Assembly (NCBI RefSeq): GCF_019285735.1
Contig: NZ_CP079107.1
Coordinates: forward strand, 744,001 to 808,000
Source: Paeniglutamicibacter sp. Y32M11
GTDB taxonomy: Bacteria; Actinomycetota; Actinomycetes; Actinomycetales; Micrococcaceae
Length of the DNA stretch: 64,000 nt
Direction: 5' to 3'
Shown: positions 29,574-45,075 of the stretch, in pieces
Layout of the letters: each line of letters begins with the position of its first letter
How positions within the stretch are numbered: position 1 is the stretch's first letter
Notes under the pieces: model-generated
Told to the model about the DNA's origin: nothing
Seen by the model: only the letters and a program-made list of their open reading frames with translations
Database searches by the model: none
Program-made: the position numbers and the translations under genes

Positions 29574-29950
29574 GCAGCTCGCCGGTGCCCGAAGCCACAA
29601 TCGCATCACGCTTCGCCTGGTTAATGGAGCGACAGTGAAGCGTCGGTCATCCGTTTGATTGGTTCCGCGCGCCAGTAGCGTTATGCGGCCCTTGCGGTGC
29701 CCGGTGAATGCTGGTCACGCTCCGGACGATGGTTCCGTGCGACGTCACGGACGCTTCACAGTGATCTGTCCACCGTCATATAAAATCCCAAAATCCTCAC
29801 CAAACAAAGGAAATCGCGAGCGGCCGGGCTGTAACAATGTGTCCCCGAGCACCGCCCGAAGATGACGCCCCGCGTTCATGTGAAGTGTTTTTGCCCTTCG
29901 TGACGAGGGCCCTCGAGTGCCCCTTGCGCAGCGTGCTGATGGTGTTTCAA
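29574..29950. other. Gene-free stretch ahead of the SAM riboswitch leader
   Basis: No gene is supported. It holds a 10-bp inverted repeat (GTGAAGCGTC at 29635-29644 with its complement at 29750-29759), a nearby pair of GGTTCCG-type direct repeats, and the 12-bp palindrome CGAGGGCCCTCG at 29904-29915. The metF promoter must lie in its right part. Confidence 0.45.
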
Positions 29951-29963
29951 GATGGACACATCA

Positions 29964-30143
29964 ACCATCAAGAGCGGCTGAGAGATCTGGCTCGTTGACG
30001 CCGCAGCAACCATCACGTGATGGCATTCCTCCTTCAAGAGGATGTCCATCAATGAGGGTGCTAAGGCCAGAAGCGATGGAGCCGCTTCAGCGTTCGCTCA
30101 CCATCGCCGCAGGACACCCCACATGTGGGTCCCAGCGGCTTTT
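29964..30143 (+). promoter_or_regulatory. SAM riboswitch (SAM-I/SAM-IV clan) with attenuator, upstream of metF
   Basis: The conserved core is clear: ATCAAGAG, the TGAGAGA bend, GCAGCAACC and GGTGCTAA. P1 pairs CCATC (29965-29969) with GATGG (30075-30079), and P2 pairs GCGGC (29974-29978) with GCCGC (30000-30004). A pseudoknot TCTGG/CCAGA (29986-29990 with 30067-30071) fits. No P4 arm is seen, which points to the SAM-IV or SAM-I/IV variant. Downstream, GCGATGG (30073-30079) can pair with CCATCGC (30101-30107) as antiterminator. It competes with a terminator built on GCCGC/GCGGC (30106-30139) containing the palindrome CCCACATGTGGG and followed by TTTT. High SAM should switch metF onward off. 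Confidence 0.85.
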
Positions 30144-30189
30144 GTGTCGACCCCACTGAGGCCTCCCTCGAATCAACGAGGAGTCCCAC

Positions 30190-31116
30190 ATGAGCATTGC
30201 AACAAGCGTCGCACCACCGTCGCTGTCTTATGAGTTGTACCCACCGGCTAGCCGTGATGCCAGTGAAAGCGTGTTCAGTACCATCGCCGCGCTGGAGAGC
30301 ACCGATCCGGACTATGTGTCGGTGACCTACTCCGGATCTCCAACCCGTCGCGCTGCCTCACTGGAACTAATTGACCACTTGATCCGCGACACCCGACTGC
30401 GTCCGCTGGCCCACCTAACCTGTGTGGGGGAGAGCCGGGAGTCCCTACAGAACCTGGTGCGCCACTTCATTTCCCTCGGGGTGCGCGGAGTGCTGGCCCT
30501 GCGCGGGGACCTGCCCACCAAGAGCGATGAATGGCGCGGAGAATTTCCATTCGCCCGGTACCTCATCGAACTGATCCGTGAGGTCGAGGCCGAACATTCG
30601 GCGGCCCTGGCCGGCGGCAGGCTCGGTGTGGGTGTGGCCGCTTACCCGATTCGGCATCCGGAATCGCCCTCCTTTGACCACGACATCGAGGTGCTCCTGG
30701 CGAAGGAACGTTCCGGCGCCAACTACGCCATCACTCAGGTGTATTTCCAAGCCAGCGAATACACCAACCTGGTGGAATCGGCGCAACGAGCCGGGGTGAC
30801 CATCCCGATTATTCCCGGCGTCATTCCGCTGAACTCGCTGAAGCGGCTGAATCGGTTGGCCTCCATGACCGGGGTGTGCCCGGATCCGGAACTGGCCCAC
30901 GCACTGGAAACCGCCGATTCGGAGGCCGAACGCCATCGCATCGGCGTGGCAGCAGCGGTGAACCTGGCCCGGCGCGCCTTCGACGATGGCGCTCCGGGAG
31001 TTCACCTGTACACCTTCAACGATCATCGTGGCTCCCTCGATGTGGTTGAACAACTGGAATTGCCACGCACTCGGGCCAAGGTCACCCGCACGTGGGCCAC
31101 CCGCGCCGTGGCCTAA
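30190..31116 (+). CDS. metF: Methylenetetrahydrofolate reductase
   Basis: 308 aa, the usual MTHFR length. It reduces 5,10-methylene-THF to 5-methyl-THF, the methyl donor for MetE. The family stretches are present: LSYELYPPAS, VSVTYSGSPTRR, HLTCVGESRE, VLALRGD, and the flavin-binding GANYAITQVYF and IPIIPGVIPL. GAGGAG lies 6 bases before the ATG. The preceding CCTCG-AATCAA-CGAGG (30166-30181) can fold over part of that ribosome site. It is the first gene after the SAM riboswitch, with metE 66 bases downstream. Confidence 0.92.
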   Translation: MSIATSVAPPSLSYELYPPASRDASESVFSTIAALESTDPDYVSVTYSGSPTRRAASLELIDHLIRDTRLRPLAHLTCVGESRESLQNLVRHFISLGVRGVLALRGDLPTKSDEWRGEFPFARYLIELIREVEAEHSAALAGGRLGVGVAAYPIRHPESPSFDHDIEVLLAKERSGANYAITQVYFQASEYTNLVESAQRAGVTIPIIPGVIPLNSLKRLNRLASMTGVCPDPELAHALETADSEAERHRIGVAAAVNLARRAFDDGAPGVHLYTFNDHRGSLDVVEQLELPRTRAKVTRTWATRAVA

Positions 31117-31182: not shown

Positions 31183-33540
31183 ATGTCGAAGCAGACCTTC
31201 CCCGCCGCATCCATCCTCGGTTACCCACGCATCGGTCCTCACCGTGAACTAAAAAAGGCCCTCGAAGCGCACTGGGCCCAGCAGACCGACGAAGCCACCC
31301 TGCACGCCGCGGCTCGCGAACTGCAGAGAAACAATCTCGCGAAGCTCACCACCCTGGGACTTGGTGCCACCGATGCATCGCTGCCCGGTGACTTCGCCTA
31401 TTACGATCAGGTACTGGATACGACCATCGCGCTCTCCGCTGTGCCGACCCGCTTCGCGGACCTCGCCGCAACCGACGGCACCATCAATACCGCCGGCGCA
31501 TTTGTCCTGGCCCGCGGCGATGAATCCCGCGCCCCGCTGGAAATGACCAAGTGGTTCGACACCAACTATCACTACCTCGTGCCGGAGATCGGTGAAAGCA
31601 CCCCGATCAAGGCCAACGCCGCAGCATTGGTGGAATCTTTCACCGCCCACCAGGCTAACGGCACCATCATCCGACCCACGCTCGTGGGACCCATCAGCTA
31701 CCTGCTGCTGGCCAAGGCCGAGGACGGCGCAGCAGCCGACTTCGATCCGTTGGTGCGCCTGGATGACGTGGTAAACGCCTATGTCGAGATTCTTGCGGCG
31801 CTGGCCGCTGCCGGTGCCCCGTGGGTTCAGCTTGATGAGCCAGCCTTGGTCACCGACCGCGGTGCCGCACTGGCCGTTCCCGGCGCTCTGGCCGAATCCG
31901 TCTACACCACGCTGGCCGCGGCCACCGAGCGCCCGGCCCTGCTGGTGACCTTGGGCTACGGCACCGCGGGCAACGTCGAACGCCCGGGCGAAACTCAGGG
32001 CCTGCTGGCCCGCGCCGGTGTTGACGCGGTGCACGCCGACCTCGTCCGTGGGACATTGCCCACCGCAGACTTCCTGGGCGATCTGGCCGGCTCCACGCTG
32101 GTGGCGGGCATCGTTGATTCACGCAACATCTGGCGCAACAACCTCACCACGTCACTGCAGACCCTGCAGGGGCTGCGCGCCGAGGTTCAGCGGGCCGGCG
32201 GGTCGCTCGCCGTGGGTACCGCCACCTCGTTGCAGCACGTCCCGCACGATGTCGCCCTGGAAACCCAGCTGCCGGCACACCTCCCCGAATGGCTCGCCTT
32301 CGCCAACCAGAAGGTCTCCGAGGTCATCACGCTGGCCAAGGGCCTGAACGACGGGCAAGAAGCAGTGGTAACGGAATTGGCAGAAGCCGACGCTGCCATC
32401 AAGAACCGCGCCGAGTTCGCCGGAACCACCGTGCCAGCTGTCCGCACCCGCCTGGCCAACCTGACCACCGCCGACTTCTCCCGCTCGGACGCCACCACCC
32501 GCAAGGTAGCGCAGGAGCAGGCACTGGACTTGCCGCTGCTGCCCACCACCACCATCGGTTCCTTCCCACAGACCGTGGAGGTCCGCTCCGCCCGTGCCGC
32601 GCACGGCGCCGGTACCATCAACGACGCCGCCTACGAGGGTTTCTTGAAGGAAGAGATCGCCCGCGTGGTGGCCCTGCAGGAAGAACTGGGTCTGGATGTG
32701 CTGGTCCACGGCGAGGCCGAGCGTAATGACATGGTCCAGTACTTCGCCGAAAACTTCGACGGCTTCGCCGAAACCTCCAACGGCTGGGTGCAGTCCTACG
32801 GCTCGCGGGCCACGCGTCCCTCGATCCTCTGGGGAGACGTCTCCCGACCGGCCCCGTTCACCGTCCCGTGGATCTCCTACGCGGCATCGTCGACCAACAA
32901 GCCGTTCAAGGGCATGCTCACCGGTCCGGTCACCATCCTGGCCTGGAGCTTCATCCGCGACGACGAGCCGCTTTCGGTCTCCGCCAACCAGGTGGCCCTG
33001 GCCCTGCGCGATGAGATCGCCGACCTCGAGGCCGCCGGCATCTCCATCATCCAGGTCGATGAGCCGGCATTGCGCGAGCTATTGCCGCTGCGGGCCAAGG
33101 ATCAGACCAAGTACCTGGGCTGGAGCGTGGATTCCTTCCGGCTATCCACCGCCGGAGCCGCGGACAGCACCCAGATCCACACGCACCTGTGCTACTCCGA
33201 ATTCGGGGAGATCATCAACGCGATTGACGCCCTGGATGCCGATGTGACATCGATCGAGGCCGCACGTTCCCGGATGGAGGTCACCGAGGATTTGACGAAC
33301 TTCGGCTTCTCCCGCGGCATCGGTCCGGGCGTCTATGACATCCACGCCCCGCGTGTACCTTCCGAGGCCGAGGTTGCCGAACTGATCACCATTGCGCTGG
33401 GCTCCCTGGATGCGCGCCAGCTCTGGATCAACCCGGACTGCGGACTCAAGACCCGCGGTTACGCAGAGACCCGCGAGTCGCTGGCCAACCTCGTTGCGGC
33501 CACGGTTGCCGCACGCAGCACCCTGAGCCTGAGCGTCTAG
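31183..33540 (+). CDS. metE: Cobalamin-independent methionine synthase
   Basis: 785 aa. It transfers the methyl of 5-methyltetrahydropteroyl-triglutamate to homocysteine with a zinc centre and no B12. All four zinc ligands are visible: H668 and C670 (THLCYSEFGEI), E692 and C753 (NPDCGLKTR). The N-terminal half carries ILGYPRIGPHRELKKALE. It follows metF on the same strand and sits behind the same SAM riboswitch, with its own AGGAG ribosome site. A hairpin follows its stop codon. Confidence 0.95.
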   Translation: MSKQTFPAASILGYPRIGPHRELKKALEAHWAQQTDEATLHAAARELQRNNLAKLTTLGLGATDASLPGDFAYYDQVLDTTIALSAVPTRFADLAATDGTINTAGAFVLARGDESRAPLEMTKWFDTNYHYLVPEIGESTPIKANAAALVESFTAHQANGTIIRPTLVGPISYLLLAKAEDGAAADFDPLVRLDDVVNAYVEILAALAAAGAPWVQLDEPALVTDRGAALAVPGALAESVYTTLAAATERPALLVTLGYGTAGNVERPGETQGLLARAGVDAVHADLVRGTLPTADFLGDLAGSTLVAGIVDSRNIWRNNLTTSLQTLQGLRAEVQRAGGSLAVGTATSLQHVPHDVALETQLPAHLPEWLAFANQKVSEVITLAKGLNDGQEAVVTELAEADAAIKNRAEFAGTTVPAVRTRLANLTTADFSRSDATTRKVAQEQALDLPLLPTTTIGSFPQTVEVRSARAAHGAGTINDAAYEGFLKEEIARVVALQEELGLDVLVHGEAERNDMVQYFAENFDGFAETSNGWVQSYGSRATRPSILWGDVSRPAPFTVPWISYAASSTNKPFKGMLTGPVTILAWSFIRDDEPLSVSANQVALALRDEIADLEAAGISIIQVDEPALRELLPLRAKDQTKYLGWSVDSFRLSTAGAADSTQIHTHLCYSEFGEIINAIDALDADVTSIEAARSRMEVTEDLTNFGFSRGIGPGVYDIHAPRVPSEAEVAELITIALGSLDARQLWINPDCGLKTRGYAETRESLANLVAATVAARSTLSLSV

Positions 33541-33604: not shown

Positions 33605-33653
33605 ATCACCCCACTTCGCATTCACTTACCACTTCGGCCCGAAAGGCACGATC

Positions 33654-34985
33654 ATGGCCTCCAGGCAATGGCACAGCTCCACCACCGAAATTCACGCAGG
33701 CTACACACCCGCTGCCCCGCACCGCCCCATGACCGTGCCTATCTACTCCTCCGCCGCCTATCAATTCCCCGACTACGCCACCGCCGCGCAGCTTTTCTCA
33801 CTCCGGCAGCCGGGCTTCACCTACTCCCGCACCGGTAACCCCACGGTGGCCGTCTTGGAGGAACGCGCCGCGGCTCTCGAGGGCGGGATCGGTGCCATCG
33901 CCACGGCCACCGGACAATCGGCGGTGGCCCTCGCGCTACTGGCGTTGCTGCAGGGCCCGGGCCACCTGGTGGCCTCCAATAAGCTCTACGGCGGCACCGT
34001 TGACCTGCTCACCGATACCTTCGCCGACTTTGGGGTCACCGTCACGTTTATCAACCCGGAGGATCCTAGCGCCTGGGCCGGCGCGATCACGGAGAAGACT
34101 CGGGGTTTTTTACTCGAATCAGTCTCCAACCCGCTAATCACGCTGGTGGACCTGCGGGCCATTGCCGAGGTCGGGCACGCCGCGGGGATTCCGGTGGTCG
34201 TGGATAACACCTTGGCCACGCCCGCTGCCTACCGGCCCATCGATTTCGGGGCCGATGTGGTGGTGCATTCGGCCACCAAGGCGCTGTCCGGTCATGGATC
34301 GGTGCTGGGCGGTTTGATCATCGACGCTGGAACCTTCGATTTTTCCGATGCCACCCGGTGGCCGCAGATCGCCGCGCCCAAGGCCCGCTACTACGGGGAT
34401 TCACTGCTGGAGCGTTATGGCTCCAAGGCCTACCTGATGCTGGTGCGCTCCAAATTCCTGCACGATCTGGGGCCCACACTCTCGGCCGCCGCCGCCGCCG
34501 GAATTCTCACCGGCATCGAGACGCTATCGCTGCGTGTGACCAAGGCCCAGGCGAACGTGCTGGACCTGTGCCGGGGCCTGGCCGGGCATCCGGCGGTGGC
34601 CCGCGTGCATCACCCCTCCATCCCCACCCACCGGGACCACGCGTTGGCGCAGCGCGACTTCCCGCGCGGTACCGGTGGGGTGTTCTCCTTTGACCTCGTG
34701 GATCCGGGGAACGTCCCGGTTTTTGTTGATTCGCTACGGCTCTTCGCGCTGGCGGCAAACATCGGGGACGCCCGCTCACTGGTGGTCCACCCGGCGTCCA
34801 TGACGCACTGCCGACTCTCCGACGCCCAGCTTCAGGAGGCGGGGATTAGCGCCGGCACGCTGCGCATCTCGGTCGGTCTGGAGGATGCGGCGGATCTGCT
34901 GCAGGACCTCATCGGTTCGCTGGACGCGCTGAGCACCACGCCGGCGCCACCAGCGGCAGACCTGTTGGAAACCAGCAACGCCTAA
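33654..34985 (+). CDS. metY: O-acetylhomoserine sulfhydrylase (aminocarboxypropyltransferase)
   Basis: 443 aa. PLP enzyme of the Cys/Met family that makes homocysteine directly from O-acetylhomoserine and sulfide. The PLP Lys is K209 in VVHSATKALSGHG. The long form with TYSRTGNPT, the insertion around the PKARYYGDS region and the C-terminal TLRISVGLED favour MetY over MetB. GAAAGG lies 7 bases before the ATG. It sits 113 bases after metE and 34 bases before metB, giving the cell both direct and trans-sulfuration routes. Confidence 0.85.
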   Translation: MASRQWHSSTTEIHAGYTPAAPHRPMTVPIYSSAAYQFPDYATAAQLFSLRQPGFTYSRTGNPTVAVLEERAAALEGGIGAIATATGQSAVALALLALLQGPGHLVASNKLYGGTVDLLTDTFADFGVTVTFINPEDPSAWAGAITEKTRGFLLESVSNPLITLVDLRAIAEVGHAAGIPVVVDNTLATPAAYRPIDFGADVVVHSATKALSGHGSVLGGLIIDAGTFDFSDATRWPQIAAPKARYYGDSLLERYGSKAYLMLVRSKFLHDLGPTLSAAAAAGILTGIETLSLRVTKAQANVLDLCRGLAGHPAVARVHHPSIPTHRDHALAQRDFPRGTGGVFSFDLVDPGNVPVFVDSLRLFALAANIGDARSLVVHPASMTHCRLSDAQLQEAGISAGTLRISVGLEDAADLLQDLIGSLDALSTTPAPPAADLLETSNA

Positions 34986-35019
34986 ACAACCGCCCCTCCA
35001 CGAAAGGATGAACCCAAAA

Positions 35020-36222
35020 ATGAGCGAGCACAACCACGGCTTTAATACCCAGGCCATTCACGCCGGACAGGCCCCGGATCCACTAACCGGCGCGGTGATC
35101 CCGCCGATCTACCAGACCAGCACCTTTGTCCAGGACGGCATCAACGTGCTGCGCAACGGACACGAATACTCCCGCGGATCCAATCCAACGCGCAACGGCT
35201 TCGAAACTCAGCTCACCACCTTGGAGGCAGGGCACGCCGGATTTGCCTTCGCCTCGGGCATCGCCGCGGAGGACGCACTACTGCGTGCGGTGCTGGCCCC
35301 GGGGGACCACATCGTGCTGGGCGCCGACGGTTATGGCGGAACCAACCGGCTGATCAATCGACTGCACGGAAAATGGGGGATCACCAACACCCCGGTGGAT
35401 ATCACCGATACCGCGGTAGTTTCCGCCGCAGTGCAGCCGGGGAAAACCGCGCTGCTTTGGGTCGAAACCCCGTCCAACCCGCTGTTGGGGATTGCCGATA
35501 TTGCGGCGTGGGCAGCCATCGCCCACGCTGCCGGTGCCCTGTTGGTGGTGGATAACACCTTCTCCACACCCTTCCTGCAGCGGCCCCTGAGACTGGGCGC
35601 GGATGTGGTGGTGCATTCGACCACCAAGTACATTGGCGGGCACTCCGATGTGTTGGGCGGCGCGGTGATTGTTTCCGATGCAACGTTCCGTGGCGAGACC
35701 TTGGCAGCGGCGGTGGGCTTCCAGCAATTTGCCGGGGGAGCCGTGGCCGGGCCGCAGGATTGTTTTTTGGCCGCCCGCGGCCTGAAGACCCTGGGGCTGC
35801 GGATGGAACGTCACTGCTCCAACGCCGCGAGGATCGCGCGCTGGTTGGACGGGCGGGCCGAGTTGGAAAAGGTGCTCTATCCGGGGCTGCCCACCCACCC
35901 GGGGCACGAGTTGGCCAAGGCTCAATCCTCGGGCTTTGGTGGAATCGTCTCGCTGCAATTTGTTGGCGGTGAGGCCGCAGCCCGGGCCTTCGCCGAAGCC
36001 ACCGAGCTCTTTGCCCTCTCGGTCTCCCTGGGCGGGGTCGAATCGCTGGTGTGCTATTCGGCGGAGATGACGCACGCCTCGGTCATCGGCACCGAGCTGG
36101 CGGTGCCACGGAACTTAGTGCGGCTTTCGGTGGGCATCGAGCAGGTGGAGGACCTGATCGCCGACCTCGAGCTCGGTCTGACCGCGGCCCGTAGCGCTAC
36201 CTTGGAGCGGGTCGCCGCCTGA
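35020..36222 (+). CDS. metB: Cystathionine gamma-synthase-type trans-sulfuration enzyme
   Basis: 400 aa, the length of MetB. It shows the family markers NTQAIHAGQAPDPLTGAVIPPIYQTSTF, EYSRGSNPTRN and the PLP Lys K203 in VVHSTTKYIGGHSD. It would form cystathionine from an O-acyl-homoserine and cysteine. A cystathionine gamma-lyase role (MetB and gamma-lyase are close relatives) cannot be excluded, but position next to metY supports MetB. The start at 35020 is used because the AAAGGA is 12 bases upstream, while the ATG at 35008 overlaps that ribosome site. Confidence 0.8.
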   Translation: MSEHNHGFNTQAIHAGQAPDPLTGAVIPPIYQTSTFVQDGINVLRNGHEYSRGSNPTRNGFETQLTTLEAGHAGFAFASGIAAEDALLRAVLAPGDHIVLGADGYGGTNRLINRLHGKWGITNTPVDITDTAVVSAAVQPGKTALLWVETPSNPLLGIADIAAWAAIAHAAGALLVVDNTFSTPFLQRPLRLGADVVVHSTTKYIGGHSDVLGGAVIVSDATFRGETLAAAVGFQQFAGGAVAGPQDCFLAARGLKTLGLRMERHCSNAARIARWLDGRAELEKVLYPGLPTHPGHELAKAQSSGFGGIVSLQFVGGEAAARAFAEATELFALSVSLGGVESLVCYSAEMTHASVIGTELAVPRNLVRLSVGIEQVEDLIADLELGLTAARSATLERVAA

Positions 36223-42583: not shown

Positions 42584-42683
42584 GGATGCTGGTGCTCCTT
42601 GGACGATTTTTGTGACTGAAAATGCAACGGTCATCTCCTGTAACAGTCTGGCCCGCGCGCCTATTCCGTCTAAGATTGGTGAC

Positions 42684-42760
42684 GTGTCGCAACTGGCGTT
42701 GGGTGGGGTGAACCACCGGGGAGCGACACAGGAACACACCACGGACCGCGCGCCTGGGTC
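42684..42760 (+). promoter_or_regulatory. ZTP (pfl) riboswitch upstream of glyA-folD
   Basis: P1 is GTGTCGC (42684-42690) with GCGACAC (42723-42729), enclosing CTGGCG and a hairpin ending AACCACCGGGGA. The second domain CCGCGCGCCTGGGTC (42746-42760) matches the conserved CCGCCUGGGCA of this class. ZTP and ZMP build up when 10-formyl-THF is short, and the riboswitch then raises expression of folate genes. Downstream GGGATT/AATCCC (42763-42768 with 42786-42791) could form part of the switch. The glyA-folD context is one of the most common for this class. Confidence 0.85.
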
Positions 42761-42830
42761 TAGGGATTAATTGAAGTGCACGCTAAATCCCCGCCCGAAG
42801 AACAACACTCACCCACTGGAGTTCAACACG

Positions 42831-44193: not shown

Positions 44194-45075
44194 ATGACCG
44201 CACAGATTCTTGACGGCAAGGCAACCGCGAAGGCCATCAAGGCCGAACTGACCGAGCGTGTGGCAGTCCTTGCCGCGCGCGGCGTCACCCCGGGCTTGGG
44301 AACCATTTTGGTTGGATCGGACCCCGGATCGACCTGGTACGTCGGCGGCAAGCACAAGGACTGCGCCGAGGTTGGCATCAAGTCGATCCGCGTAGACCTC
44401 CCCGAGGACACCACGCAGGAGATCCTGCTGGCTAAGGTCCGCGAACTGAACGAGAACCCGGAATGCACCGGCTACATCGTCCAGCTGCCGCTGCCCAAGC
44501 ACATTGACCAGGACGTCATCCTCGAGGCCATGGACCCGGCGAAGGATGCGGATGGACTGCACCCGATGAACCTCGGTCGTCTGGTGGCCAACGTGAACCG
44601 CCCGATGACCTCCCCGCTGCCCTGCACCCCCAAGGGGTGCGTGGAGCTGCTGGCCCGCCACGACATCGACCTGAACGGCAAGAACGTCTTGGTCGTCGGC
44701 CGTGGCGTGACCATCGGACGCCCGATCGGCCTGCTGCTGACCCGTCGCGACGTTAATGCGACAGTTACCCTGGCCCACACGGGCACCGCCGATTTGGCCA
44801 GCCACCTGGCGCAGGCAGACGTGGTCATCGCAGCTGCAGGACAGCCGCACATGATCAAGGCCAAGGACCTGAAGCCCGGCGCGATCGTATTGGACGTCGG
44901 TGTCTCACGTGTCAATGACGAAAACGGCAAGGCCGTTGTGACCGGTGACGTGGAGCCGGCAGCCTACGAGGTCGCCTCCTGGATTTCTCCGAACCCCGGT
45001 GGTGTGGGTCCGATGACTCGTGCCATGCTCTTGGCCAACGTGGTCGAGTCAGCCGAACGCGCGGCCGGAATCTAG
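44194..45075 (+). CDS. folD: Methylenetetrahydrofolate dehydrogenase / methenyl-THF cyclohydrolase
   Basis: 293 aa. It interconverts 5,10-methylene-THF, methenyl-THF and 10-formyl-THF with NADP. The active-site pair Y49 and K53 lies in [11 protein letters not shown], followed by [26 protein letters not shown], the NADP-binding [13 protein letters not shown] and [14 protein letters not shown]. It uses the methylene-THF made by GlyA and feeds PurN and PurH. GGAG lies 10 bases before the ATG. It is very probably co-transcribed with glyA under the ZTP riboswitch. Confidence 0.95.

Follow-up and report, generated by a model that had tools for sequence, protein, structure and literature searches.

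Several described riboswitches come close to the leader RNA analyzed here. SAM-IV (RF00634) is reported to be devoid of a P4 arm, to occur in Actinobacteria and to possess the shared binding core (PMC6890682). The SAM-I/IV variants are described with a P2 without internal loop (PMC2864571). For the SAM-I riboswitch of the met operon of Xanthomonas campestris, an action mainly on translation through an anti-Shine-Dalgarno (anti-SD) strand is reported (PMC7270179). Combined attenuation of transcription and translation was a named riboswitch category by 2007 (PMC2258182), coherent as well as incoherent dual cases have been reviewed (PMC11218506) and a Rho-based duality is reported for an M-box of M. 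tuberculosis (PMC12810186).

We analyzed the leader of a metF-metE-metY-metB operon of a soil bacterium within a stretch of 64,000 nucleotides, here referred to as the window. We consider it likely that this leader is a P4-less SAM-I-like riboswitch whose two gates act coherently to turn the operon OFF. The computed support comprises an aptamer match, pairings with conservation and covariation, and the co-occurrence of the two transcriptional parts. SAM binding, termination and a block of translation are inferred from these, as are the succession of the steps and the direction in which the platform evolved.

The operon and its SAM-type aptamer

Coordinates in the window refer to its plus (+) strand. 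The leader RNA with its SAM-clan aptamer and expression platform was read directly at 29962-30189. It is followed by metF (30190..31116, 308 aa, ATG at 30190; NCBIfam TIGR00676, E 1.4e-68), metE (31183..33540; NF003556, 981.9 bits, cut-off 541), a metY-like gene for an O-acetylhomoserine sulfhydrylase (33651..34985, start codon at 33651 picked by us; TIGR01326, E 6.4e-135) and metB for cystathionine gamma-synthase (35008..36222; NF005871, 585.9 bits, cut-off 513). As the curated thresholds were not reached even by the best NCBIfam models, the names metF and metY rest on strong E-values. The gene order behind the riboswitch, as given in an initial annotation made from the sequence, was borne out by these models. 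A 99% identity between the metF protein and its counterpart of Paeniglutamicibacter terrestris places the window in the genus Paeniglutamicibacter.

A promoter scan found no sigma-70-type promoter at the leader. By eye, TTGCGC (29924-29929) and CAAGAT (29948-29953) form a candidate weak promoter with a start just 5' of P1. An inverted-repeat-like stretch, TCATGTGAA...TTCGTGACG, was seen by eye 5' of the leader at about 29875-29906. It recurs in some relatives of the genus 5' of the presumed promoter and is possibly a protein operator.

Two RNAs of the window matched Rfam. The second one, besides the SAM aptamer at 29962-30082, is a ZMP/ZTP riboswitch at 42679-42766 (RF01750, 51.6 bits) ahead of a glyA-like gene starting at about 42828 and a folD-like gene at 44194-45075, both named from a reading of their translations.

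The aptamer was matched by the Rfam SAM model RF00162 with 51.4 bits (cmscan, cut-off 44.4, E 6.6e-9), and the alignment spans the full model from 1 to 108. The SAM-clan core noticed initially has hence passed the covariance-model check proposed for it. P1, P2 with its internal loop, P3 and the pseudoknot of the P2 loop are all present in this alignment. P1 is formed by CCATC (29965..29969) and GATGG (30075..30079), base by base as first annotated; its 3' strand doubles as the 3' part of the antiterminator 5' arm, and the last GG begins the antisequestor described below. P2 pairs 29974-29978 with 30000-30004 and, beyond the internal loop, 29982-29984 with 29991-29993. The pseudoknot joins TCTGG (29986..29990) to CCAGA (30067..30071) and co-varies: among the 40 SAM-type metF leaders we counted TCTGG/CCAGA in 26, CCTGG/CCAGG in 7 and TCTGG/CCAGG in 7.

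The P4 of the described SAM-I fold is absent. Only three bases separate CCAGA, ending at 30071, from GATGG, starting at 30075, which is too tight for such an arm and agrees with the earlier remark that none is visible. Among 59 genomes, which comprised that of the window and those of relatives, 40 had RF00162 matches above the cut-off, and 29 of the 30 best RF00162 loci of the relatives had a P4-less core as well. The remaining locus, L005, was missed by our pattern since its P1 strand differs; by eye it looks P4-less, too. An oddity of the metF locus is thus ruled out, and the absence of P4 is the regional rule among the SAM loci of these relatives.

The initial annotation had leaned towards SAM-IV or SAM-I/IV, a membership which our analysis did not support and which we rejected. 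The SAM-IV model RF00634 gave no match at the metF leader at E <= 10, and the SAM-I/IV model RF01725 gave none genome-wide at the same limit with all 133 candidates scored; furthermore, the P2 internal loop is kept. In 13 leaders of the genus the P3 loop shows free variation, and a partner for PK-2 or P5 of SAM-IV was not seen in it by eye. The TCTGG/CCAGA pairing, quoted in favor of these classes, does exist, but a pseudoknot of this kind is common to the clan and no mark of SAM-IV. Because the SAM-I fold includes a P4 that is lacking here, we place the aptamer, as judged from its sequence, within the SAM clan as a SAM-I-like variant without P4, and not as canonical SAM-I. It is the same in all leaders of the genus, with no change up to P3 in 13 of 13, and the RNA probably senses S-adenosylmethionine.

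Both classes coexist in the window's genome. RF00634 scored above its cut-off at five loci elsewhere, and three more RF00162 matches lie outside the window within 5 kb (G000:C1 223932-228510).

Alternative pairings of the expression platform

Downstream of the aptamer a terminator-like hairpin spans 30106..30143, composed of GCCGC (30106-30110), GCGGC (30135-30139) and TTTT (30140-30143). Its stem has a folding energy of -17.6 kcal/mol, which was equalled by 1 of 200 shuffles; the full leader folded with z = -2.2 (6/200 shuffles). The hairpin folds in all 13 leaders of the genus with -16 to -21 kcal/mol and is followed by UUU or UUUU each time. In the genus alignment 90.9% of the stem cells were paired, compared to 27-53% in slid controls, and six cells had changed on both sides, a number reached by none of 500 shuffles. 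The U-tract comprises 3-4 U (TTTTGTG; TTTGG in two leaders and TTTATTT in one), and a terminator scan demanding 5 T in 8 bases found none at the leader. A uniform scan for a hairpin plus T-run was positive in the 12 leaders of the window's clade and in L121 and L122, marginal in L117 and without result in the other 16.

The putative antiterminator pairs GCGATGG (30073..30079), overlapping the P1 3' strand, with CCATCGC (30101..30107), overlapping the terminator by the GC at 30106-30107. Both the consumption of the P1 3' strand and the two bases shared with the terminator had been annotated before and were confirmed. In the 13 leaders 98.9% of the antiterminator cells were paired, with a G.G mismatch in P. 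antarcticus; covariation is missing, since P1 leaves one arm no freedom to change. The motif CAT[CG]GC follows P1 at a distance of 22 bases in all 12 leaders with a terminator and is absent from the 19 others; the clade with terminator was delimited only after the leaders had been inspected. This co-occurrence with the hairpin is a stronger argument for the antiterminator than its pairing. Taken together, the terminator stem kept in 13 of 13 leaders and the antiterminator strand in 12 of 12 speak for the readable attenuator first proposed.

A further hairpin covers the SD sequence of metF. It consists of CTCCcTCG (30163-30170) and CGAGGAG (30177-30183), in total 30163..30183, and includes the earlier register CCTCG (30166-30170)/CGAGG (30177-30181), whose place over the ribosome site could be verified. 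An alternative 7-bp register has C30167 bulged; folded alone, the hairpin prefers the 5-bp register. The stem sequence differs between genera, and 30 of the 31 leaders have 5 or more of the 7 bases of the SD strand paired (L118: 4).

What had been missing was a link from this hairpin to the aptamer. It is now supplied by a pairing here named antisequestor, with the 5' strand GGAGccgCTTCAG (30078..30090) and the 3' strand CTGAGGcCTCC (30156..30166), whose CTCC is the SD-hiding strand. The native duplex had -17.1 kcal/mol. We compared native with swapped strands in 31 metF leaders of six GTDB genera, 26 of them distinct. The distinct leaders had a native mean of -17.5 kcal/mol versus -14.5 kcal/mol for swapped strands, and 0 of 5000 permutations were as good; with the leaders pooled into seven groups it was 24 of 5040. 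Other leaders carry different pairs in this place, such as GGAGacGCACCAG/CTGGTGCaCTCC in L115, GGATaaGCAC/GTGCtgATCC in L112 and GGAGcacCTTTAG/CTGAAGtCTCC in L109. Within the genus, 94.6% of the cells were paired versus 41-64% for slid controls, and covariation was no better than in shuffles (217/500). In L201 the native duplex was weaker than most swaps (-12.5 kcal/mol), and several leaders of the genus were average. A decay of the antisequestor in the window's genus was ruled out by folding, as CTTCAG/CTGAGG plus GGAG/CTCC are retained. The evidence for a ribosome site sequestered in competition with an aptamer-linked strand thus consists of pairing and covariation.

The 31 leaders of the pairing tests were drawn from 41 SAM-type metF leaders. 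Left out were L110, which was missed by the pattern and in whose likely twin L047 cmscan finds the aptamer, and nine leaders of more distant genera (L130, L148, L158, L159, L176, L190, L195, L196 and L197).

Two putative gates and their alternatives

Based on these pairings we propose the following sequence of events. With SAM bound, P1 (29965-29969/30075-30079) would hold GATGG and prevent the antiterminator, so that the terminator-like hairpin (30106-30139) would fold and part of transcription would stop. In transcripts reading through in the presence of SAM, CUCC (30163-30166) would remain to mask the SD sequence. Without SAM, GCGAUGG and CCAUCGC would pair and block the terminator. After synthesis of the RNA further downstream, GGAGccgCUUCAG (30078-30090) would pair with CUGAGGcCUCC (30156-30166) and expose the ribosome site. 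The GG at 30078-30079 would be used in turn by P1, antiterminator and antisequestor. Judging from position alone, the antiterminator would come first and the antisequestor would follow after 30156-30166 has been made. The suggestion of stacked transcriptional and translational control made at the outset thereby gains support from the conserved terminator module as well as from the antisequestor and sequestor pairings.

Constrained folding, which leaves aside the pseudoknot, SAM and transcription kinetics, gave -82.7 kcal/mol for the OFF state (P1, terminator and hidden SD), -83.1 kcal/mol for the antisequestor with free SD and -85.0 kcal/mol for the antiterminator with hidden SD; pseudoknot and SAM should favor P1. 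The modelled states are predicted to lie within 2.5 kcal/mol, as a switch needs. Freeing the SD would cost 7.6 kcal/mol with P1 formed and 0.7 kcal/mol with the antisequestor formed. An extra rearrangement would be needed, because the SD is predicted to be hidden in the antiterminator state as well.

The short U-tract and the pattern scan without a terminator would also suit a SAM switch acting on translation only, in which the hairpin at 30106-30139 folds without terminating or merely pauses the polymerase, and antisequestor and sequestor exert control as in the other genera. Such a switch would be in line with the translational parts in every genus tested, with the lack of such a hairpin in 16 of the 19 leaders that do not belong to the clade, and with the statement of Barrick and Breaker that, apart from Firmicutes and some further groups, translation attenuation is the most common mode (PMC2258182). 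However, 13 of 13 leaders retain the hairpin, in which compensating changes occur and which invariably ends in UUU, and CAT[CG]GC, whose spacing is constant in all 12 leaders that carry it, would have no role. We regard control of translation only as unlikely.

The opposite simplification, a transcription-only attenuator with an incidental and constitutive SD hairpin, could refer to a terminator and antiterminator that are complete on paper. Yet covariation between the SD hairpin and the strand competing with it extends over genera devoid of a terminator, which leaves this option very little credence. Equally improbable to us is a degenerate or ligand-shifted aptamer that has lost SAM sensing and, for instance, responds to a related metabolite instead. 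The missing P4 would fit, and so would a score below the 59.3 and 56.1 bits of other SAM loci of the genome (the third has 50.7), but higher-scoring loci such as L015 are likewise P4-less and the sequence up to P3 is identical in 13 of 13 leaders of the genus.

Distribution of the putative gates and known systems

Translational parts were found in all six GTDB genera of the 31 leaders (g1, g8, g11, g18, g21 and g52). In the window's clade, each of the 12 leaders had both the terminator and the antiterminator strand; among the 19 leaders outside of it the antiterminator strand was present in none and terminator-like hairpins in three. The genome G013 (leader L201) belongs to the same GTDB genus as the window and is without the terminator module. 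The best reading of this distribution is that an older translational SAM switch existed, into which the Paeniglutamicibacter clade would later have inserted a transcriptional gate. For the fuller scenario we see roughly even chances: a working translational switch was kept across the Micrococcaceae, one clade inserted terminator and antiterminator strand between the antisequestor arms, and the same SAM signal is read early by transcription and late by translation. A gain as the direction rests on parsimony, because the metF tree leaves the nearest branches unsettled. It does not tell whether the leaders with a terminator are a single clade distinct from G157 and g11, and it places G013 outside on the basis of an incomplete row of 203 aa whose branch is long.

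The near-identical leaders L121 and L122 of genus g21 have a different hairpin, ACGCCC...GGGCGT-TTTT, between the antisequestor arms. This may represent a second, independent terminator gain.

In total, 103 metF loci from 102 Micrococcaceae genomes carried the SAM aptamer in 40 cases (39 by pattern, and L110 via cmscan of its likely twin L047), another conserved RNA in 57, both in none and neither in 6. The consensus of the other RNA is GUCAGCGAYC(stem)GGUGUGGGUGCCCCCAUGUGGGCCUGACAUUUG; examples, all outside the window, are the region L056:2233-2335, L133:285-365 and L067:2242-2322. Among 25 sequences six pairs, all in the first stem, had changed on both sides. No Rfam family matched. A model of this RNA found it in 57 of 197 genomes of the family, with one copy each and always before metF, in 1 of 396 phylum-wide genomes, which is also a Micrococcaceae, and in no copy in the window's own genome. 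In the main text of selected papers on bacterial RNA discovery metF is unmentioned. The RNA is a candidate for a new regulatory RNA and may be an unnamed regulator that replaces the SAM switch.

Expression platforms change fast, and a transition from a translational to a transcriptional riboswitch is seldom visible. Here, close relatives with one and with two putative gates are comparable, and the jointly gained parts can be named. The comparison also cautions that a second, older gate may sit at the ribosome site even where a terminator can be read ahead of a gene.

We found no account of the metF leader in the open-access literature searched. With SAM-I (S box, RF00162) it has in common P1, the P2 internal loop, P3, the pseudoknot, the core sequence and a score above the cut-off, as well as a P1 3' strand that doubles as part of the antiterminator. 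In contrast to SAM-I, it has no P4, a very short P1 (5 bp) and a putative two-gate platform with a separate antisequestor. It resembles SAM-IV (RF00634) in being P4-less and actinobacterial with the shared binding core (PMC6890682), but this model has no match at the leader, and PK-2 and P5 were not seen by eye. The clan core is shared with SAM-I/IV (RF01725) as well; here the P2 internal loop is kept and the genome has no match. Like the SAM-I riboswitch of Xanthomonas campestris, the leader is a switch of the SAM-I clan on a methionine operon. There, the release of the SD in the absence of SAM is assigned to uncharged initiator tRNA (PMC7270179), whereas the metF leader has a conserved antisequestor in cis and a terminator-like hairpin. 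Dual riboswitches are already known and the metF leader adds a variant to them, in which the gates would be separate, successive structures and for which relatives with the translational gate only are available.
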